Below, in pieces: positions 9,497 to 61,499 of a stretch of DNA of 64,000 nt. The notes under the pieces were generated by a model that did not search any database, had not been told where the DNA came from, and saw only the letters and a program-made list of their open reading frames with translations. Where the stretch lies: the NCBI GenBank assembly GCA_012959765.1, contig DUCO01000024.1, forward strand, positions 1 through 64,000. The letters are read 5' to 3'. Both the position numbers and the translations under genes were made by a program. The stretch comes from Dehalococcoidia bacterium (lineage in GTDB: Bacteria > Chloroflexota > Dehalococcoidia > Lucifugimonadales > Lucifugimonadaceae). How positions within the stretch are numbered: position 1 is the first letter of the stretch; every line of letters starts with the position of its first letter.

Positions 9497-11083
9497 CTAG
9501 AGCGGGATGTTCCCATGTTTTTTCGGTGGCAGAGTATCGACCTTCGATTCGAGCATTCGGAGGGCTTTCACCAGCTCGGGTCGGGTTTGTGCAGGGTCGA
9601 TCACATCATCGATGTAGCCACGATTGGCAGCTACGTACGGGTTTGCGAACTGATCGCGGTAGTCGTTGACCAGTTCGGTGCGCTTGGCTTCTGGGTCATC
9701 GGCATCTGCGATTTCTCTACGTCGAATTACGTTGATAGCGCCTTCGGGTCCCATCACAGCGATCTCAGATCCCGGCCAGGCGAAATTCACGTCTGTCCGC
9801 GTCTCTTTTGAGCCCATGACGATGTAAGCACCACCGTAGGCTTTTCGCAGAATGACCGTGATCTTCGGCACCGTTGCTTCAACGTAGGCGTAGAGGAGTT
9901 TCGCACCGTGGCGAATGAGTCCGCCGTACTCCTGCTGCATACCGGGCATGAAGCCGGGCACATCGACAAATGTCACGATCGGAACGTTGAACGCATCGCA
10001 GAAGCGGACGAATCGAGCGGCTTTGTCTGATGCGTCGATATCGAGCATACCCGCCATCTGGTTGGCCTGATTGGCGACAACTCCGATGCTCATGCCATCG
10101 AGTCGAGCAAAACCAACAACAACGTTGGGTGCGAAGTTGTGGTGAACCGGCAGGAAATCGCCGTTGTCTACCACTTTCGAAATCACATCCATCACGTCGT
10201 ATGGCTGGTTCGCTGCATCGGGAACAACGTCTCTCAACCCAGTGTCGGCACGATCGGGAGCATCTGTTGGTTCGTTCGAAGGAGCCGATTCGGCGTTGTT
10301 CGACGGCAGATATGAGAGAAGTGCTCGCACGTGGGCGAAGCAGGCTTCTTCCGATTCCGCTGTGAAATGCGCGACTCCGCTTCGTGAGGCATGGGCTGTT
10401 GCGCCGCCAAGATCCTCGTGCGAAACCTCTTCGCCGGTAACCGCCTTCACAACGTCGGGGCCGGTGATGTACATCTGCCCGATGCCTTCGACCATGTAGA
10501 TGAAGTCGGTAAGGGCAGGGGAGTAGACCGCTCCGCCGGCTGCGGGCCCCGCAATGATGGTGATCTGCGGAACTACACCGGATGCGAGAGTGTTTCGCTT
10601 GAATATTTCGCCATACCCGGCAAGGGAGTCGATTCCTTCTTGAATTCGTGCTCCACCAGAGTCGTTAATGCCGATTATCGGTGCGCCCATGCGCATTGCA
10701 TGGTCCATCACTTTAGAGATTTTCTGGGCTGCCACCTGGGACAACGAACCGCCCAACACAGTGAAGTCCTGGGCGTATGCAAACACCTGGTTACCGTCGA
10801 CTGTGCCGTGGCCGGTTACGACTGAATCGCCTTCGAATCGCTGCTTGTCGAGGCCGAGGTCTGTTGACCTGTGGGTGACGAACGTGTCGAGTTCGACAAA
10901 GCTGCCGTCGTCGAACAGGCTCACAAGGCGTTCACGTGCCGTGAGTTTGCCACGTTTGTGCTGTGATTCGACCCGTCGTTCGCCGCCGCCCAGATGTGCG
11001 GTTTTTCGTCGAGCTTCGAGATCTTCCAGCTTTGTCGTCTGCGCCTGATCTTCAGACGCGTCGGGTTTGGATTCGGTGGCTAT
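9497..11083 (-). CDS. Acyl-CoA (propionyl/methylcrotonyl-type) carboxylase, carboxyltransferase subunit
   Basis: This is the biotin-dependent carboxyltransferase beta subunit that moves CO2 from biotin to an acyl-CoA, here most like PccB/methylmalonyl-CoA decarboxylase alpha. Conserved stretches include INDSGGARIQEG, AGPAAGGAVYSPALTDF and FVDVPGFMPG. The first ATG/GTG/TTG in frame is GTG 10924, which would remove the conserved N-terminal helix (KLEDLEARR, GGGERR, GKLTARERL). The frame stays open to a TAA at 11108-11110 with no standard start. I propose ATA at 11083, seven bases after GAGG, giving 528 residues, the family length. No biotin carboxylase gene is in the window. Confidence 0.85.
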   Translation of the reverse strand: MATESKPDASEDQAQTTKLEDLEARRKTAHLGGGERRVESQHKRGKLTARERLVSLFDDGSFVELDTFVTHRSTDLGLDKQRFEGDSVVTGHGTVDGNQVFAYAQDFTVLGGSLSQVAAQKISKVMDHAMRMGAPIIGINDSGGARIQEGIDSLAGYGEIFKRNTLASGVVPQITIIAGPAAGGAVYSPALTDFIYMVEGIGQMYITGPDVVKAVTGEEVSHEDLGGATAHASRSGVAHFTAESEEACFAHVRALLSYLPSNNAESAPSNEPTDAPDRADTGLRDVVPDAANQPYDVMDVISKVVDNGDFLPVHHNFAPNVVVGFARLDGMSIGVVANQANQMAGMLDIDASDKAARFVRFCDAFNVPIVTFVDVPGFMPGMQQEYGGLIRHGAKLLYAYVEATVPKITVILRKAYGGAYIVMGSKETRTDVNFAWPGSEIAVMGPEGAINVIRRREIADADDPEAKRTELVNDYRDQFANPYVAANRGYIDDVIDPAQTRPELVKALRMLESKVDTLPPKKHGNIPL

Positions 11084-11324
11084 CGTGATGCCTCGCTGGC
11101 TAGAGTTTTAGTGCGTGCGTCGCAAGATTGTTTTGGCAATTTACCTGCTGTTGAATCTCATGGCGCAGAGCGCCAACAAATCCTAACTTACGGCAAGATG
11201 TCCAGCAACTCCGCTATTGGGATTATTTCACACCTATCCGGTGTTAAAATCGGATGGTAAAAATTCCATTGCTGATACCCGGCGTGTTGCCAGTTCGAAG
11301 AAACGATAGCTACGGCCAGATCAC

Positions 11325-38874: not shown

Positions 38875-39336
38875 TCATTCAGTAGTCGGTGATGCCAGCG
38901 AGAATTTTGACGCCCAGATTCTGATCTGCGACCCGTGTTCCTGATAGTGGAGCACAGTGCAGGAATCGATCATCTCGCGGACCGGGTCGTATGGCTCGAA
39001 GTAGGCGGTCGGTGCCTTTGCCAGCTGATCACGCAGCGAACGGTGAACCTGCTCCATCTCTTCAACGGTCTGGCGTGGAGTGTTGCCTTTCTTCTGGTCC
39101 GCAGCGTTCGCATTAAAGCGATCGATGTTCCCTACAGGTTCTATGCTGCCACGGTCGAGTGAGGTAACCAGTTCCCATTCCCACGTCGTAATGTGCCCGA
39201 CGATATCGGTAACCGACTGGCTTTCCAGGACGCCCGGCTTCGCCATGTCATCACTGACAAGTTGGTCAAGCGAATTTCTGAACTGTCGCCAGTTATCGTC
39301 GATAGCAGCGAGAACTGCGCTTTTGCGGTCTTTGAT
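38875..39336 (-). CDS. DfsB/ClbS-like (DinB superfamily) four-helix protein
   Basis: The product resembles ClbS/DfsB family proteins: KSAVLAAIDDNWRQF, then SVTDIVGHITTWEWELV and a C-terminal HYQEHGSQIRIW. The only ATG in frame is 39246, which would cut off the first 30 residues of the fold. The frame is open to a TAA further upstream, with no GTG or TTG. I propose ATC 39336, nine bases after GGAG, giving 153 residues. An ATT at 39342 is possible but too close to GGAG. Function unknown; ClbS relatives protect DNA from a genotoxin. Confidence 0.6.
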   Translation of the reverse strand: MKDRKSAVLAAIDDNWRQFRNSLDQLVSDDMAKPGVLESQSVTDIVGHITTWEWELVTSLDRGSIEPVGNIDRFNANAADQKKGNTPRQTVEEMEQVHRSLRDQLAKAPTAYFEPYDPVREMIDSCTVLHYQEHGSQIRIWASKFSLASPTTE

Positions 39337-39470
39337 GGAAATTGGCTCCGGGTGGGGCGTTAGGCTCTCGGCGTGTAAGTGCGTTGACAGATTACGTTAG
39401 GAAGCCTAGCGTGGCGAGCCCGCGCTGATTTGCGCGATCCAGAACCGAATATCCCTATGGTGGCGAATTT

Positions 39471-54803: not shown

Positions 54804-55826
54804 CTATGCCTTTGTCGATGCTGCTACAGGTGGAGCCATGTGCATTTGAGGCTTCCACGGAGCGGTGTCCCAAAGTTGATCGCCAATTGCGGTTGCTTCG
54901 TTGATCGCTTCGTTAGGAACGTCTTCTTCCCATGCGATAAGATTCTGCTGTAACTGTTCGAGCGTTCGTGCGCCAACAATGCAGGCTGAAACCGCGGGAT
55001 TAGAACGAACCCATCCGAGTGCCAGAGCCATCGGCGTTACGCTGTATTTCTCTGTAACTCCGATGAACTGCTCCATCGCTTCGAATGTGACTTCGTTCCA
55101 ATAGGTGGTTTTATAGAAATTCGCTGCTCTAAAGTCGTTCGAGTAGCGTCCGCCCTTGGGCATTTCGGCTTTGAACTCGCGATGCTTTCCAAGCAGGAAT
55201 CCACCAGCCTGGGGTGAATAGACCATTACGCCAACACCCTGATCTACACACGCCGGGAACAGTTCGCGTTCCGGCTCTCGGTACAGCAAGTTGTAACGGG
55301 GCTGAACCGAGTTGAACTTGCTGAAGCCGTTCTTGTCCTGCGCCCAGAGCGCTTCGACAAGCTGCGGTCCTGAGAAGTTCGATGCGCCGATGTAGCGTGC
55401 TTTTCCAGCTCGAACAACGTCGTTGTACGCCTCGACTGTTTCTTCGATGGGCGTGGTGAGATCTGGCGAGTGGATCTGGTAGAGATCGACGTAGTCTGTG
55501 CCCAAACGCTTGAGCGAGTCGTCTATTGCCTGCATCACATACTTCTTGTTGACCCCGACATCGTTCGGATTGGGACCAACCTGGCTCTTGCCCTTGGTCG
55601 CCAAAACCACTTCTGAACGCCGAGTTTTAATGAACTTGCCGACATTCTCTTCTGATAGCCCATCGCAATAAGAATTGGCCGTATCGATGAAGTTCACTCC
55701 GCCATCGAAGGCAGCCGACATGATGCGCATCGAGTCTTCGGCGTTGGTTTGACCACCAAAGTTGTCGGATCCGATGCAATATTCAGAGACTTTTAGCCCG
55801 GTGTTCCCGAGTCGTACATATTCCAA
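54804..55826 (-). CDS. Aldo/keto reductase (copy 1 of adjacent pair)
   Basis: This 340-residue NADPH-dependent TIM-barrel reductase has the tetrad in NFIDTANSYCDGLSEE (Asp, Tyr), LATKGKSQ (Lys) and LYQIHSPD (His). The C-terminal GARTLEQLQQNLIAW is typical of the YajO/Tas-like voltage-channel beta-like group. TTG 55826 is seven bases after GGAG and gives the start EYVRLGNTGLKVS. The upstream neighbour at 55838-56890 is a related protein with an equivalent N-terminus but a different start codon. Confidence 0.9.
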   Translation of the reverse strand: MEYVRLGNTGLKVSEYCIGSDNFGGQTNAEDSMRIMSAAFDGGVNFIDTANSYCDGLSEENVGKFIKTRRSEVVLATKGKSQVGPNPNDVGVNKKYVMQAIDDSLKRLGTDYVDLYQIHSPDLTTPIEETVEAYNDVVRAGKARYIGASNFSGPQLVEALWAQDKNGFSKFNSVQPRYNLLYREPERELFPACVDQGVGVMVYSPQAGGFLLGKHREFKAEMPKGGRYSNDFRAANFYKTTYWNEVTFEAMEQFIGVTEKYSVTPMALALGWVRSNPAVSACIVGARTLEQLQQNLIAWEEDVPNEAINEATAIGDQLWDTAPWKPQMHMAPPVAASTKA

Positions 55827-55837
55827 TTGAGTGCTCC

Positions 55838-56890
55838 TTATTTCGCCGACGAGCTTGTGGGTAGTGTGCCGAACGCCTGTCCCGAATTCGGCGGGTATGC
55901 CATCGGAGCCTGCGATTCGAATTCGTCAGCCACGGCTCGAACTTCGGCCATGGCCTCGGCTGGAGCCGATTCTGACCATGCGTCGAGAACTCCCTGGATG
56001 TGTTCAACCTTGCGTGCGCCGAAGATCGGTGCAGTTACGCCGGGGAACTCTGAAACCCACTGAAGAGCAAGTCGTATGGCGGGTTGACCGTGCTTTTCGG
56101 CGATTGCCGTGAACTTCTCAACGGCAGTAAACGCAGCATCGTTGAAGTAACGAGATTTTAGACCCCCACCCTTTGAGTCGTCTCGCATATCGAACTTGGA
56201 TCCAGCGACTGCCGTGCCAGACGAACCGTGCTTGCCTGTGAGCATTCCGCTTGCGAGTGGTGAGTAGGGGATCACCGCTACATCGTGATCGGCAGTGAAA
56301 GGAACCATCTCTCGTCCGAGTCCGGGTTGGAGAATGTTGAATACGCTCTGAATCGCTTCGAATCGGTAGAGATTTCGAACGTCGGATGTCCAGAGACCTT
56401 TGGCGAGAATCCATGTTGGGAAGTTCGACGCACCGGCGTAGACGACTTTGCCCTGATGAATTAGATCGTCAACGGCACGAAGTGTCTCCTCGATCGGAGT
56501 TTCTTCGTCCCACGAATGGCAGTACAGCAGGTCAATTCGATCGGTGCGGAGTCGACGAAGGGAATCCTCGACCGCTCGAACGATGTGATACCGAGATGCA
56601 CCCTTATCGTTCACACCCGCTCCGACCGCCGAACGATACTTGGTGGCGAGAACGACATTGTCTCGACGTCCTGAGTCGGCGAGGTAGTTACCGATCATCG
56701 ATTCCGAACGACCTTCGTTGTAGGAATCGGATGTATCGACGAAGTTGATTCCGCCGTCGAGAGCGGTGTCAAGAATTTCGTGTGCTGTCGGCTCGTCGCA
56801 ACCCCACTGGTTGCCGTAATTATCGGTTCCCAGACAGATGTTCGAGACCTTTGTCCCTGTGCGACCTAGCTTTACATATTCGATAGGAAT
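55838..56890 (-). CDS. Aldo/keto reductase (copy 2 of adjacent pair)
   Basis: This reductase has the tetrad in NFVDTSDSYNEGRSE, LATKYRSAV and YCHSWDEE. The first ATG/GTG/TTG in frame is ATG 56698, which would delete the first strand and the catalytic Asp/Tyr. Upstream the frame is open and reads PIEYVKLGRTGTKVSNICLG, as in copy 1. No standard start exists there. ATT 56890 lies seven bases after GGAG, exactly as TTG does in copy 1. I use it, giving 350 residues. Pseudogene status is unlikely because all residues are kept. Confidence 0.8.
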   Translation of the reverse strand: MPIEYVKLGRTGTKVSNICLGTDNYGNQWGCDEPTAHEILDTALDGGINFVDTSDSYNEGRSESMIGNYLADSGRRDNVVLATKYRSAVGAGVNDKGASRYHIVRAVEDSLRRLRTDRIDLLYCHSWDEETPIEETLRAVDDLIHQGKVVYAGASNFPTWILAKGLWTSDVRNLYRFEAIQSVFNILQPGLGREMVPFTADHDVAVIPYSPLASGMLTGKHGSSGTAVAGSKFDMRDDSKGGGLKSRYFNDAAFTAVEKFTAIAEKHGQPAIRLALQWVSEFPGVTAPIFGARKVEHIQGVLDAWSESAPAEAMAEVRAVADEFESQAPMAYPPNSGQAFGTLPTSSSAK

Positions 56891-56936
56891 GGTGAGGCTC
56901 CGTGGATTATTGCGAACTGGCTAGTTAGTGTTGTAT

Positions 56937-57992
56937 TTAGTCGTGATTCAGATCAATCCAGCGTGATTCTTCGACTGATTGATAGGCTGCATCAACGATT
57001 TCAGCAGCCTTCATTCCGTCGTAGAAACTGGTTTCGATCAGTGATTGGTCACCCGCGATGATCGCATCGGCGAACCGTTGGTAGGGTTGAGGATACTCGG
57101 CTCCAGGATCGAGCTGTCCGACCGGATTATTAGGTCCCGTTACGCCCTGGATCCCAAACCGACCGTCAGTGGTGATTCGACCCAGTTCACCCGATATTTC
57201 GACTCGAGGCGAAGTCTTGCCGTCGGCGTCGGTTCCACGAGACGCAAAAGAAGTGTGTACGACAGCCATTCCGCCGTTCACCCATTCACACAGAAGTCCC
57301 GAAACGTCGGGCACATCAACATCGATCCCTTCGGGGTTATCGAACGTTGGGCGGTGGCTGTTCGTAGTGTCGAACGATGCGACGACCCGCTTTACTTCAC
57401 CATTGATGAACCGCAGCATGTCGAATACGTGAATGAGTTCGTATACCGATCCGCCACCGTTCTCGGAACGGAAGCGCCACGAGAGCGTCTCCGGTCGGGC
57501 GTCGAGCTGATGCGACATGCCCCACCACAGGTTGGCGTGGTAGATGCGGCCTACGAAATCGTCGTCGAGATAGCGCTTGATGCGACCTATCATCGTGTTT
57601 CCGCGCTGATTGAAGTTAGTTGAGTGGATCACCCCGGCTTTTTCAGCCGCTTCGGACATGACTTTCGCGTCAGCAGCTGTGAGAGCGAGTGGCTTGTCGC
57701 AGAGGACATGCTTGCCTGCTGCGATAGCGTCGAGAGCGAGATCTTTGTGCGACCCGGTCGGGGTGATGATGTCGACCGCATCGAGACCGTCCATCTTCAG
57801 CATCTCGTTGTGATCAGTGAAGCCGTTCGGGATGTCCCACTTCTGCTGAAACTCGGCCAAAGCTTCGGGGTTTCTCCTCATAGCTGCAACAACTTCTACG
57901 TTGTCGAGCTTCGAGAATTGCTCCATATGAGTATTGGCGAACCCGCCGACACCGATAATTCCGATGCGTACTTTGCCTGATGCTGAGGGCAC
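56937..57992 (-). CDS. Gfo/Idh/MocA-family oxidoreductase
   Basis: This 351-residue protein has an N-terminal NAD(P)-binding domain (RIGIIGVGGFANTHMEQF) and a C-terminal alpha/beta domain. VLCDKPLALT is the family's EKP-like motif, here DKP. It probably dehydrogenates a sugar or inositol-type hydroxyl. I start at GTG 57992, five bases after AGGAA; ATG 58031 in frame is possible. It stands upstream of the two aldo/keto reductases, which may act on related substrates. Confidence 0.86.
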   Translation of the reverse strand: MPSASGKVRIGIIGVGGFANTHMEQFSKLDNVEVVAAMRRNPEALAEFQQKWDIPNGFTDHNEMLKMDGLDAVDIITPTGSHKDLALDAIAAGKHVLCDKPLALTAADAKVMSEAAEKAGVIHSTNFNQRGNTMIGRIKRYLDDDFVGRIYHANLWWGMSHQLDARPETLSWRFRSENGGGSVYELIHVFDMLRFINGEVKRVVASFDTTNSHRPTFDNPEGIDVDVPDVSGLLCEWVNGGMAVVHTSFASRGTDADGKTSPRVEISGELGRITTDGRFGIQGVTGPNNPVGQLDPGAEYPQPYQRFADAIIAGDQSLIETSFYDGMKAAEIVDAAYQSVEESRWIDLNHD

Positions 57993-58174
57993 TTTGGTTC
58001 CTGTCTGCCGCGATGCGCGTGGGTGGCGCATCGAAGGCGTTTGAAGACCGGTGATCGAGTCGAGGCACCCAGTTTAGCGAAAGTGCGGGTTACAGGCTGC
58101 GAATTGTTGACGAATATGGACTCCATATCGTCATGGGCCATAGGAACGTTCAGGTGGCTAAGTAGAAATGAGAA

Positions 58175-58459
58175 CTATTTCTTGATTCGTAGAACTGCGA
58201 ATCCTGCACCGATAGATGCAATTTGCGCCATCAGTGCCAGCGCAACGACCTTGAAATACGGCGTAACTATTTCTGGACGACCCGAATCAGGTCCGTATTC
58301 AAATAGGAAATTGCCGGTTTGTACGAACGAAATTGTTATTGAAATAGCCATCACTACCCAACCGGCAATCACAATCCGAACCGGCCATATTCCGAGTAAG
58401 TCGATCCAGTAATGCCAAAAGTGGAGACTAAGAGATTTCATTCCAGAGTTGTTGCTCAT
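58175..58459 (-). CDS. Small membrane protein with two helices
   Basis: This 94-residue protein has hydrophobic stretches at about 25-45 and 68-90 and a basic end (VLRIKK). ATAGGAG lies eight bases before ATG 58459. I do not recognise a family. It follows the GlcD-like gene by 40 bases and could be its membrane partner, but there is no direct support for that. Confidence 0.6.
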   Translation of the reverse strand: MSNNSGMKSLSLHFWHYWIDLLGIWPVRIVIAGWVVMAISITISFVQTGNFLFEYGPDSGRPEIVTPYFKVVALALMAQIASIGAGFAVLRIKK

Positions 58460-58499
58460 GATTTCACTCCTATCTCAAAATATGTTGCTTCTGCTGAGT

Positions 58500-59993
58500 T
58501 TACTGCCAGTCCGACGTGCCAGTCGGTCGGAACGATTCTGCTGAAATGCCGTACGCCTCGCCGTGAATTGCTCCGCCAGGGAACACCTTGCCGGGGTTGA
58601 AACGCTCGCTTAGTGAAGGGACTCCGATTGGAGCATCATCTGGTTGCTCGCCGATAAACGCAGTACGGAGTCGCGACATCGACTCCAGGTCGTCCTCAGT
58701 GAACACCAGCGGCATGTATGCCTGCTTCTCGATTCCAATGCCGTGCTCGCCTGACAAAGCGCCACCTGCTGCAACACACGCTTCGAGAATGCGTGCTCCA
58801 GCGAGAATGGCCTGCTTCACCTCGCTGGGGTTTCGTTCGTTGAACAGAATCGCAGGGTGAATGTTGCCATCGCCTGCATGGAACACGTTGGCGACGGTTA
58901 CGTTGAGTTCAGCGGCGATCTGATCGACCTGCTGCAACACTTCTCTGAGCTTGGTGCGGGGAACAACGCCATCAACAAGATAGTAGGTGGGAGCGATCGT
59001 TCCGTAAGCGCCAATCGCCCCTTTGCGAGTCTCCCAGAGTTTGGCCCGGGTTTCCTCGTCATCTGCTTCCCGTATTTCCATTGCGCCATGTTTGCGGCAT
59101 ATTCCGAGTACGGCTTCGGTCTGCTCTTCGACCGATTCGATCAGGCCATCTACTTCAACGATCAGAACTGCTTCGGCAGCGGCTGGATACCCGGGGTGAT
59201 AGAACGGCTCGACGGCGTCGATGGTCTTGCGATCCATCATCTCGAGCGCAGAAGGAACCATGCCAGCAGCGATGATCTCGGCAACGGTGTCTGAAGCAGC
59301 ATCCATTGTTGTGAAAGCAGCCAGCATGCTGTGAATCGCTTCGGGCTTTGGCAGTAGGCGAACGGCGATTTTGGTGATTATTCCGAACGTGCCTTCCGAT
59401 CCGACAAACGCCCCACGAAGGTCATAGCCAGTTGATTCGCGTTGCGCGGCTCCCAGCCAAACAAGTGAGCCGTCGGCGAGGACCACTTCGAGTCCGAGTA
59501 CGTGGTTCGTTGTGACTCCGAGAGCCAAGCAGTGAGGTCCGCCAGCGTTTTCTCCAACGTTTCCGCCGATAGTGCAGGTCTTTTGACTTGCCGGGTCGGG
59601 AGCGTAGAAAAGTCCGAGATGGCTGACTTTTTGAGATAGCTGAAGATTAATCATCCCCGGCTCGACGATAGCCACACGATTTTCCGCGTCTACCTCGATG
59701 AGTTCGGTGAGCCTCGTCAGTGCAATAACTACAGAATTTCGTAGTGGCACCGCACCGCCAGAAAGACTGGTCCCAGCGCCCCGAGCAACGATGTAAACGC
59801 CGTGTCGATTGGCTATCCGAACGACTTCTGCCACCTCTTCAGCGGTTCTCGGCAGCACAACGGCCTGCGGGGTCGCCTTGTCGATCGAGCCATCGTATTC
59901 GTAGACCAATAGGTCTTCAGGCTTCCAGATCACATACTGGGTGCCGACGATGGCCGCGAGGTCAGGAATCAGGCTGGAACTAACTGTAGTCAT
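58500..59993 (-). CDS. glcD: FAD-linked oxidase, GlcD-like
   Basis: This 497-residue flavoprotein has the PCMH domain (RGAGTSLSGGAVPL, GGNVGENAGGPHCLALG) and the C-terminal FAD-oxidase domain with HAGDGNIHPAIL and GEHGIGIEK. It oxidises 2-hydroxy acids such as glycolate or D-lactate. With GlcE and GlcF in the same region it would make a complete glycolate oxidase. The order is not operonic, so other partners are possible. Start ATG 59993. Confidence 0.9.
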   Translation of the reverse strand: MTTVSSSLIPDLAAIVGTQYVIWKPEDLLVYEYDGSIDKATPQAVVLPRTAEEVAEVVRIANRHGVYIVARGAGTSLSGGAVPLRNSVVIALTRLTELIEVDAENRVAIVEPGMINLQLSQKVSHLGLFYAPDPASQKTCTIGGNVGENAGGPHCLALGVTTNHVLGLEVVLADGSLVWLGAAQRESTGYDLRGAFVGSEGTFGIITKIAVRLLPKPEAIHSMLAAFTTMDAASDTVAEIIAAGMVPSALEMMDRKTIDAVEPFYHPGYPAAAEAVLIVEVDGLIESVEEQTEAVLGICRKHGAMEIREADDEETRAKLWETRKGAIGAYGTIAPTYYLVDGVVPRTKLREVLQQVDQIAAELNVTVANVFHAGDGNIHPAILFNERNPSEVKQAILAGARILEACVAAGGALSGEHGIGIEKQAYMPLVFTEDDLESMSRLRTAFIGEQPDDAPIGVPSLSERFNPGKVFPGGAIHGEAYGISAESFRPTGTSDWQ

Positions 59994-60032
59994 GAAGTCA
60001 TTGTGACACGCATTCAGGGTCGTTACAAAGCC

Positions 60033-61448
60033 CTAAAAAATCGTTCCAACACCAGTCACGTTCCGAACGATTTCACGGTCTTCCTGATCACGCACGATCT
60101 TTGCGGTTAGTGCGTCAGGATCACCCCACTGATCGAGCAGTATTTTCAGCAGTCGATCTTGCACGCTGGAATGTTCTTCTACACCAGCAAGGTTCGTGAA
60201 TTCGCCAGGGTCTGCATCGAGATCGTACAGTTCGAGCTCAACCGGTTCGCCATGGCCGTAACAGAGCTTCCACTTGCCCGATCTCACCATGCCAAGCGGT
60301 CGATCCGTGCCGTGGGCGAAGTGTTCTGAAATCGCCACGTCGTTGAGTTCGGATGTATCGCCGTTCAGCGCTGGAACGAGCGACTGCCCATCCAGATCCC
60401 ACTTAGTGAGATCAATTCCAGCGATATCAAGAATCGTGGCAACTGCATCGACATTAGAAACGGCTTCTCCAACGCGCTGACCGCCTTCGAACTTGCCCGG
60501 CCACGATATCTGCAGCGGAACGTTCGCCGACTGCTCGTAGAAGCACATTTTTCGCCATAGGCCGTGTTCACCGAGCATATCGCCGTGATCCGACGTGTGG
60601 ATAATCACCGTATTCTCGGCAAGCCCTTGCTCTTCGAGCGTCTCCATCAGGTGACCGATCTTGTCGTCAAGATATTCGCAGAGTCCGAAGTAGGCAGCGC
60701 GGGCACGAGCGATTTCATCGTCGGTCCAATCGCCATTGAGCCCGAACATCTGGCGCAAACGCTGTGCCGAGGGCGGCAGTTCATCGAGATGTCCCTCTGG
60801 GAGGTTCGGCATATCAACATTGTCGGGGTAGTACTTCGAAAAGTACGGTTCAGGAACGACGAAAGGGAAGTGCGGTGCGATGAAACCGACGCACATGGCG
60901 AACGGCTTTTCGTGGCGAGCGGGATCGGATAGATACTCGACCGCAGCCTTTTCCATTGCGTCGTCAGCTTCGATCATTGGACTGACACCCGGATTTGCCT
61001 CTCGAACACCGAACCAGTCTTCTGGCGCGGTGGGGATGCCGTCCGACCATCGATAGTGATCGAGTGGCGCTTCGATGTGCGGGTCTCTCGAAAGCTGCTC
61101 ATCAAAACCATGCAAAGGATCTGGCCCAACCAGGTGCATCTTGCCGTTCAGGGCGGTGTCGTAGCCTTCGTTTCGCAGCAAGTACGGCCACGTTAGCTGG
61201 TCAACCGGCATCGGCTTCGTGTTGTCCCAAATTTCGCACGTCGAAACGTACTGTCCGGTCATAAACGACGCCCGAGACGGAATGCAGAGTGGCGAGTTGC
61301 AGTAGTTCGCGTCGAACGTAACACCCTGCTCGGCCAATCGATCCATATTCGGCGTTTCGATGATCGGGTGACCATATGCCGACGAGAACTGCGCACCGTG
61401 CTCGTCGGACATGATGACTAAGAAGTTAGGCTGTGGTTTCGAAGCGAT
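60033..61448 (-). CDS. Type I (Cys) sulfatase
   Basis: This hydrolase removes sulfate esters. The formylglycine signature is Cys55-Ile-Pro-Ser-Arg; Asp15 and Glu16 begin the metal site (MSDEHGAQ), and HTSDHGDMLGEHG contributes the rest. The first ATG, 61412, starts at the metal motif itself and would remove the first strand. The upstream frame reads KPQPNFLVI, the family N-terminus. The only start there is ATC 61448, with AGGAAG nine bases before. The length becomes 471 residues. No anaerobic maturase gene is nearby, so an aerobic formylglycine generator elsewhere is implied. Confidence 0.83.
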   Translation of the reverse strand: MASKPQPNFLVIMSDEHGAQFSSAYGHPIIETPNMDRLAEQGVTFDANYCNSPLCIPSRASFMTGQYVSTCEIWDNTKPMPVDQLTWPYLLRNEGYDTALNGKMHLVGPDPLHGFDEQLSRDPHIEAPLDHYRWSDGIPTAPEDWFGVREANPGVSPMIEADDAMEKAAVEYLSDPARHEKPFAMCVGFIAPHFPFVVPEPYFSKYYPDNVDMPNLPEGHLDELPPSAQRLRQMFGLNGDWTDDEIARARAAYFGLCEYLDDKIGHLMETLEEQGLAENTVIIHTSDHGDMLGEHGLWRKMCFYEQSANVPLQISWPGKFEGGQRVGEAVSNVDAVATILDIAGIDLTKWDLDGQSLVPALNGDTSELNDVAISEHFAHGTDRPLGMVRSGKWKLCYGHGEPVELELYDLDADPGEFTNLAGVEEHSSVQDRLLKILLDQWGDPDALTAKIVRDQEDREIVRNVTGVGTIF

Positions 61449-61499
61449 TGAACTGTTCTTCCTGAACTTGTGAATGGCGAATGGGCAGGGCCGAAGCGA

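Follow-up and report, generated by a model that had tools for sequence, protein, structure and literature searches.

Conserved AUU, AUA, and AUC codons as putative weak starts of a few genes in "Candidatus Lucifugimonas" and close genera

Putative start codons in the window

The stretch analyzed here (the window) comprised 64,000 nucleotides (nt) of contig DUCO01000024.1 from assembly GCA_012959765.1 (Dehalococcoidia; Lucifugimonadaceae). It contained four genes, annotated as encoding an acyl-CoA carboxyltransferase, a DfsB/DinB-like protein, an aldo/keto reductase (AKR), and a sulfatase, for which the putative start codons were AUU, AUC, or AUA (collectively, AUH) rather than ATG, GTG, or TTG (the canonical codons). 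Named relatives of the window genome, which belongs to a deep-sea bacterium, were SAR202 Chloroflexota, and its genus was "Candidatus Lucifugimonas," which has been brought into culture with strains including "Candidatus Lucifugimonas marina" JH1073 (PMC10444878), the source of the complete genome in the genus. The term "start codon" occurred 0 times in the main text of that paper on the cultured genus, and a literature search pairing SAR202 with start codon returned no related paper. The four genes and the Shine-Dalgarno (SD)-like motifs preceding them were as follows.

9497..11083, minus strand: acyl-CoA carboxyltransferase (PccB/MmdA-like; PF01039, E 1.1e-194), putative ATA start at 11081-11083
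11091..11094, minus strand: SD-like GAGG, 7 nt before the carboxyltransferase ATA, read in the sequence
38875..39336, minus strand: DfsB/DinB-like gene (weak family matches), putative ATC start at 39334-39336
39346..39349, minus strand: SD-like GGAG, 9 nt before the DfsB-like ATC, read in the sequence
55838..56890, minus strand: AKR (PF00248), putative ATT start at 56888-56890
56898..56901, minus strand: SD-like GGAG, 7 nt before the AKR ATT, read in the sequence
60033..61448, minus strand: sulfatase (choline-sulfatase-like; PF00884, with TIGR03417 below cut-off), putative ATC start at 61446-61448
61458..61463, minus strand: SD-like AGGAAG, 9 nt before the sulfatase ATC, weak and variable in relatives

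The original prediction had held that the family N termini of these genes are encoded upstream of every canonical codon and that GGAG, GAGG, or AGGAAG lies 7 to 9 nt before ATT, ATC, or ATA; the frames, coordinates, codons, and motifs were confirmed for all four genes. In-frame stop codons were located 8, 20, 10, and 17 codons upstream in the carboxyltransferase, DfsB-like, AKR, and sulfatase genes, respectively, with no canonical codon between. The first canonical codons (GTG at codon 54 of the carboxyltransferase, ATG at codon 31 of the DfsB-like gene, ATG at codon 65 of AKR, and ATG at codon 13 of the sulfatase) fell well within the conserved sequence of each family. By comparison with Pfam and NCBIfam, the extended N termini of the carboxyltransferase, AKR, and sulfatase lay inside their families: the match of the carboxyltransferase to TIGR01117 (score below the family cut-off) started at residue 18, corresponding to model position 2, and the sulfatase matched TIGR03417 from residue 6 (model position 2). 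Gene prediction limited to the canonical codons would cut 64 N-terminal residues from AKR and 53 from the carboxyltransferase.

Orthologues were compared among 40 genomes, 19 of them in the genus (g1) and others in sister genera labeled g2 to g6; the counts below include the window's own gene and come from related species, which are hence not independent observations. Mismatches among orthologues are given as fractions for codon positions 1/2/3. Between two congeners, third codon positions differed in ~46% of codons.

Of the four genes, AKR showed the clearest onset of coding constraint. The putative start codon was ATT in 17 of the 18 genus orthologues and ATC in the other, and, as the original prediction implied, none carried a canonical codon at this position. 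An SD-like motif was present 7 to 8 nt upstream in all 18 (one of GGGG type), within a leader that had otherwise diverged, and was scored as strong in 16/16 rows of a survey of 364 families. Residue 3 aligned with Met1 of the solved DepB (8hwn). Coding constraint started at the proposed ATT, with mismatches of.049/.038/.416 over codons 2 to 64 compared to.571/.535/.588 over the ten upstream triplets (17 comparisons), and no upstream in-frame canonical codon was found in 17/18 orthologues. Separately, AKR belonged to a pair of tandem paralogues (54804-56890, ~41 percent identical), with the upstream copy carrying the ATT and the downstream copy listed with TTG, and this pair stayed together in all 18 genomes having AKR.

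The carboxyltransferase orthologues in the genus carried AUH at the position in all 17 genomes, again in keeping with the original prediction, with ATA in 15 (13 by automatic tally and 2 indel-shifted rows read by eye) and ATC in 2. GAGG or GAGT preceded the codon in 16/17 orthologues (by eye), and no in-frame canonical codon was present upstream in 9/17. Mismatches over codons 20 to 53 were.136/.066/.588 (16 comparisons); the earlier codons vary in length, and a plain count over codons 2 to 53 was uninformative. Outside the genus, AUC was found at the matching place in g3 (G020) and g4 (G021), where the first 76 and 90 codons, respectively, of the open frame were free of canonical codons; because these sister genera carry AUC without a canonical codon, the predicted AUH start of the carboxyltransferase is older than the genus. 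The g2 orthologue (G019) contained GGGAGG, 8 nt, and ATA, together with an ATG 13 codons upstream that lacked an SD motif. The g5 start (G022) was ambiguous (TTG or AUC/AUU), and the codon was canonical in G023 (ATG) and G024 (TTG). Of 15 genomes from other families of the order, 14 offered a canonical codon, and no clear reading was obtained for G033. Assignment of the starts of AKR and the carboxyltransferase to these codons is made with high confidence.

The sulfatase codon was less uniform. Among 16 close orthologues, AUH was found in 12 (ATA in 8, ATC in 2, and ATT in 2), ATG was found in one, and ATG or TTG was located two codons on in three, one of which lay near a contig end, such that the expectation of no canonical start among relatives held for most of the orthologues and failed in four. 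A close orthologue was not found in three genomes. Mismatches over 11 codons were.314/.033/.521, compared to.527/.555/.645 upstream (11 comparisons), a weaker contrast in which position 1 was variable too. The sulfatase AUH codon is probably the start.

One alternative is that these codons are internal isoleucine codons and that translation starts at a canonical codon on either side of them. AUU, AUC, and AUA are exactly the isoleucine codons, and canonical codons are within reach in some carboxyltransferase and sulfatase orthologues. However, the closed and canonical-free intervals upstream of the window genes, the unconstrained upstream triplets of AKR, and the conserved N termini that downstream starts would cut off all argue against this alternative, as does codon usage. 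Internal isoleucine codons were mostly ATC in AKR (180/285), the carboxyltransferase (327/503), and the sulfatase (196/344), whereas ATC made up 1/18, 2/17, and 2/12, respectively, of the AUH codons at the putative starts; because the start codon mix differs in this way, the codons do not appear to be internal isoleucines. If AUC is avoided at these starts, this would be consistent with decoding by a CAU anticodon. Methionine and isoleucine were also interchanged at the same place in the DfsB-like, sulfatase, and FUR-like rows (see below). The internal isoleucine explanation is very improbable.

The DfsB-like gene differed from the other three. At the same codon, 15 other genomes carried ATG (9 genomes), GTG (4), or TTG (2), and ATC was found solely in the window genome; here the orthologues contradicted the original prediction. 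Constraint was nonetheless evident upstream of the first canonical codon, with mismatches of.072/.053/.438 over codons 2 to 30 versus.692/.700/.646 upstream (13 comparisons). Copies were broken by stop codons in G001 and G008, the G011 copy was without its N terminus, and no match was found in two congeners (G002 and G003). Decay of this gene seems to be under way in some members of the genus, the ATC may reflect decay or a base error, and its assignment as a start is an even call. Base errors or gene decay in metagenome assemblies could likewise be proposed for all four genes and would fit the DfsB-like pattern, but the AKR and carboxyltransferase codons recurred across independently assembled genomes, among them the complete one of the cultured JH1073, and this explanation for the set as a whole is highly improbable.

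Candidate starts outside the window and their frequency

Further candidate noncanonical starts were found outside the window, three of which are listed here.

Contig C24 of the window genome, 88821 (24.8 kb past the window), minus strand: VTT/DedA-like membrane protein (PF09335), with GGAG, 8 nt, and ATC
G013 1,461,035-1,462,337, minus strand: MFS transporter (assigned by eye), with ATC preceded at 7 nt by GAGG; also in G012
G013 ~1,440,192-1,441,244, minus strand: pyrD (dihydroorotate dehydrogenase-like; named by eye), with ACG; also in 15 congeners, including the window genome (contig C10)

The VTT/DedA-like gene, which brings the AUH genes of this region to five, carried ATA in 3 and ATC in 2 of five species. 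The MFS transporter carried ATC in both genomes read (G012 and G013), and in G012 the frame was free of canonical codons between the upstream stop and a point 20 codons beyond the first conserved isoleucine. A FUR-like gene (PF01475) carried ATG in G013 and ATA in G012.

The pyrD codon was invariant. ACG was located 7 to 9 nt after a GGAG-type motif in all 16 genus orthologues with a readable start, although threonine has four codons, and in one genome it was directly preceded by a stop codon. No ATG, GTG, or TTG was found upstream in 10/16 orthologues, nor was any canonical codon found in the first 24 downstream codons in 13/16. An isoleucine codon two places past the ACG (ATC in 10 and ATT in 6, compared to 143 ATC, 73 ATT, and 58 ATA among internal isoleucine codons) is the less likely start on this evidence, and pyrD probably starts with ACG. 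The 16/16 conservation of this codon indicates that conserved weak starts are not confined to the window.

The frequency of such starts was estimated from gene pairs between G013 and G012 (324 pairs in one stretch and 170 in a second). Noncanonical starts were accepted for 4/87 pairs in the stretch syntenic with contig C24 (carboxyltransferase, AKR, sulfatase, and VTT/DedA-like) and for 4/407 pairs elsewhere (infC, FUR-like, MFS transporter, and pyrD), where infC sits in a 230-kb stretch that was chosen around it as a synteny anchor. Accepted noncanonical starts thus amounted to about 1 to 2 percent, rare yet more than usual. Because these cases were the reason for choosing the window, clustering is no fair test, and a superseded count of 2/407 versus 4/87 (Fisher P = 0.010) is to be read accordingly.

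Automatic start surveys were noisy and insensitive, and a second pass added the MFS transporter and pyrD. In the 324-pair survey, AUH with a strong SD motif in both genomes was found 3 times, compared to 0 to 2 times for 13 control codon sets. The 364-family survey gave 10 for AUH, whereas 12 control sets gave 0 to 7, with four of them exceeding 4; among families with at least 5 species, the counts were 4 versus 0 to 1. In the 170-pair survey of the infC stretch, AUH was found once (infC, present by construction), compared to 0 to 4 for controls. A strict survey of 490 pairs found AUH 2, ACG 2, and AGG 1, versus GCN 4 and GTH 2; the remaining control sets gave no rows. With no clear excess over control codons, acceptance of the cases was based on inspection of the sequences and on orthologues. 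A tally of ATG replacements (81 families, 329 members) contained 9 AUH versus 27 other noncanonical codons, with the DfsB-like gene as the sole clear switch, and provided no independent support.

Genes without a canonical codon above certain coding sequence were flagged in 20/319 and 17/167 cases. On reading, most of these had a canonical codon slightly further on or an N terminus that was broken or unclear. An ispG-like row could be read as CTG with GGAG at 8 nt or as GTG further on, row g13_1373 could be read as ACG with GGAGG or as ATG 36 codons on, and rows g13_902, g13_1472, and g13_73 and the dxr-, HAD-, MiaB-, and M20-like rows (names by eye) were not counted among the accepted cases. 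The original prediction had also stated that four cases in 64 kb are far above the rare AUU/AUC starts known in bacteria. This was borne out for AKR, the carboxyltransferase, and the sulfatase, which are beyond chance; it did not hold for the DfsB-like gene, seen with ATC in one genome, and the 4/407 found elsewhere does not allow extrapolation from the window.

Components of the initiation machinery

Start selection might be relaxed in this lineage, as the original prediction suggested; in a general form of this reading, altered initiation factors, initiator tRNA, or ribosomes would give noncanonical starts genome-wide. The number of cases in the window, the VTT/DedA-like AUH codons in 5/5 species 25 kb on, the MFS transporter ATC, and the pyrD ACG are all in the direction of such relaxation.

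The IF3 gene, infC, carried ATA in 18/18 genus copies read (the copy in G005 being fragmentary). Outside the genus, 17 genomes were read: AUH occupied the same codon in 14 and the preceding codon in 2, and G022 had none. The IF3 proteins of the genus contained serine at the position of Escherichia coli R99 and RGRQ instead of RGRE in all 17 copies aligned, a feature that could favor relaxation. However, S99 is also present in a solved IF3 (5me0_Y). Residue 99 was serine in g1 and g6, arginine in g2, and threonine in g3, while the carboxyltransferase codon was AUH in g1, g3, and probably g2 and ATG in g6; g6 thus combines S99 with ATG, and g2 retains R99 yet has an SD motif with ATA. Genus-specific IF3 residues exist but do not track the trait, and altered IF3 was rejected as the cause. 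The genus IF3 also carried a long, variable C-terminal tail.

A search pattern for the initiator tRNA, in which the first anticodon base was left free, matched in 21/40 genomes and found only CAT. In the genus, the CAU anticodon with a GGG/CCC stem was found in the 7/19 genomes where the pattern matched. There was no match in 19/40 genomes (12 of the genus and 7 others), where a variant may exist, and an altered initiator tRNA was rejected as a cause for the genomes with a match. The 16S rRNA of the genus was available as fragments only, and that of the window genome itself was not found; no 16S match was obtained in the complete genome G013 with an Rfam model or a DNA query, where the gene was perhaps masked or missed. 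Among the functional bases read, G1338-A1339, the 1400 and 1492 regions, and the anti-SD sequence in G012 and the 530, 790, and 926 regions in G002 were as in E. coli, and a difference at 1340 was shared by all five genomes of other genera that were read. Nothing unusual was present in these fragments, and an altered 16S P site or anti-SD sequence was likewise set aside as a cause.

As judged from these sequences, nothing in the initiator tRNA, the 16S bases read, the anti-SD sequence, or IF3 explains a relaxed lineage. The low count outside the window stretch (4/407) and the infC stretch, where AUH did not exceed controls, also argue against relaxation, and the conserved identity of the codons argues for selection on each gene. 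General relaxation is unlikely. What stood of the original suggestion was that the codons are well supported as starts, conserved with SD motifs and the onset of constraint, with two further cases (MFS transporter and pyrD); relaxation across the lineage was not established, at a frequency of ~1 percent (4/407) and with machinery that looked ordinary where it was read.

Proposed gene-specific weak starts and known systems

The explanation favored here, with a probability of roughly 0.6, is that in "Ca. Lucifugimonas" and neighboring genera a few genes start at AUU, AUA, or, less often, AUC as gene-specific, conserved, weak starts. The use of these codons as starts is strongly indicated by the comparisons above. 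An ordinary initiator tRNA (CAU) would read AUH with a third-base mismatch, helped by the SD motif, and in AKR and the carboxyltransferase the weak start would be kept by selection. Weak third-base pairs, AUU against CAU among them, are described as disfavored by IF3 (PMC10158994), and a start disfavored in this way could keep expression low or couple it to the activity of IF3, as happens with infC. The sulfatase start would drift between AUH and canonical codons, the DfsB-like ATC would be a single-genome change and possibly early decay, and the pyrD ACG would also be a weak start used by a largely normal apparatus. From these patterns we infer initiation at the codon, decoding by formylmethionyl-tRNA, IF3 sensitivity, and a regulatory purpose. 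Control of these starts by IF3 is plausible by analogy, at somewhat less than even odds, and a small metabolic regulon (carboxyltransferase with AUA, AKR with AUU, pyrD with ACG, and perhaps VTT/DedA-like, MFS transporter, and sulfatase genes) in which the IF3 level sets synthesis is more doubtful. Such a regulon, placed in SAR202 bacteria of the Lucifugimonas family, would be an old switch on metabolism that acts through start codons, responds to IF3, and extends even to ACG; its carboxyltransferase part would predate the split of these genera.

Alternatively, the starts could be real but neutral, with weak initiation sufficing and no regulation involved. The wandering of the sulfatase start among ATA, ATC, ATT, and ATG and the switches in the DfsB-like and FUR-like genes would be expected under neutrality. 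In contrast, ATT in AKR (17/18), ATA in the carboxyltransferase (15/17), and ACG in pyrD (16/16) were retained despite the third-position divergence among congeners; because each of these conserved codons is one mutation from ATG, they appear to be kept by selection. Neutrality is unlikely.

Several observations weigh against gene-specific weak starts under selection. A canonical codon was present somewhere upstream in frame in 8/17 carboxyltransferase orthologues, with GTG four codons up in 2. The sulfatase SD motif was strong in only 2/11 rows of the 364-family survey, and 4/16 of its orthologues were canonical. The DfsB-like ATC was confined to one genome, with copies broken or partial in G001, G008, and G011. 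The pyrD ACG is mismatched at the second base, and this would be easier to reconcile with a more permissive apparatus than with ordinary third-base weakness; in vitro, IF3 was reported to tolerate almost no second-base mismatch, tolerance of certain weaker pairs being restricted to the third base (PMC10158994). Finally, start use was read from sequence, and IF3 control was argued by analogy.

The putative starts resemble the autoregulated AUU/AUC start of infC in combining a conserved AUH codon with an SD motif, and the genus infC itself carries ATA. They differ in that the window genes have metabolic functions and none of them is the gene for IF3, such that no feedback loop is implied. An AUU start in a gene other than that for IF3 is known from E. 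coli pcnB, a single case. The infC start is ATT in E. coli and ATC in Streptomyces, where a GTC start of sigR is repressed by IF3 (PMC5472188). As described there, the sigR start is likewise noncanonical, mismatched at the third base, and conserved across a genus; it differs in having been shown experimentally and in controlling a stress regulon, whereas the window genes are enzymes known from sequence. In Listeria, ATA and ATT mutants of rsbW were reported as weak but working starts, in the order ATG > ATA > ATT (PMC13068326); these arise under selection within a strain, whereas the "Ca. Lucifugimonas" starts would be old and conserved. Starts of this type are generally considered very rare; one reconstruction found 1 AUG-to-AUU switch in 61,358 ancestral AUG starts, a count that depends on annotation that may hide such starts (PMC5622118). 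Putative AUH starts of metabolic genes conserved across a genus, with one gene conserved across at least three genera, would make "Ca. Lucifugimonas," with its cultured strains, a natural test of whether non-AUG starts let IF3 tune expression.

Apart from these genes, a small ArsC/Spx-like frame (by eye) was noted on the plus strand of G013 (~1,183,151-1,183,457), with a counterpart in G012, in which conserved sequence continued upstream of an in-frame TGA. In the two genomes the TGA directly preceded STCQKAR/STCSKAR and is perhaps a selenocysteine codon.

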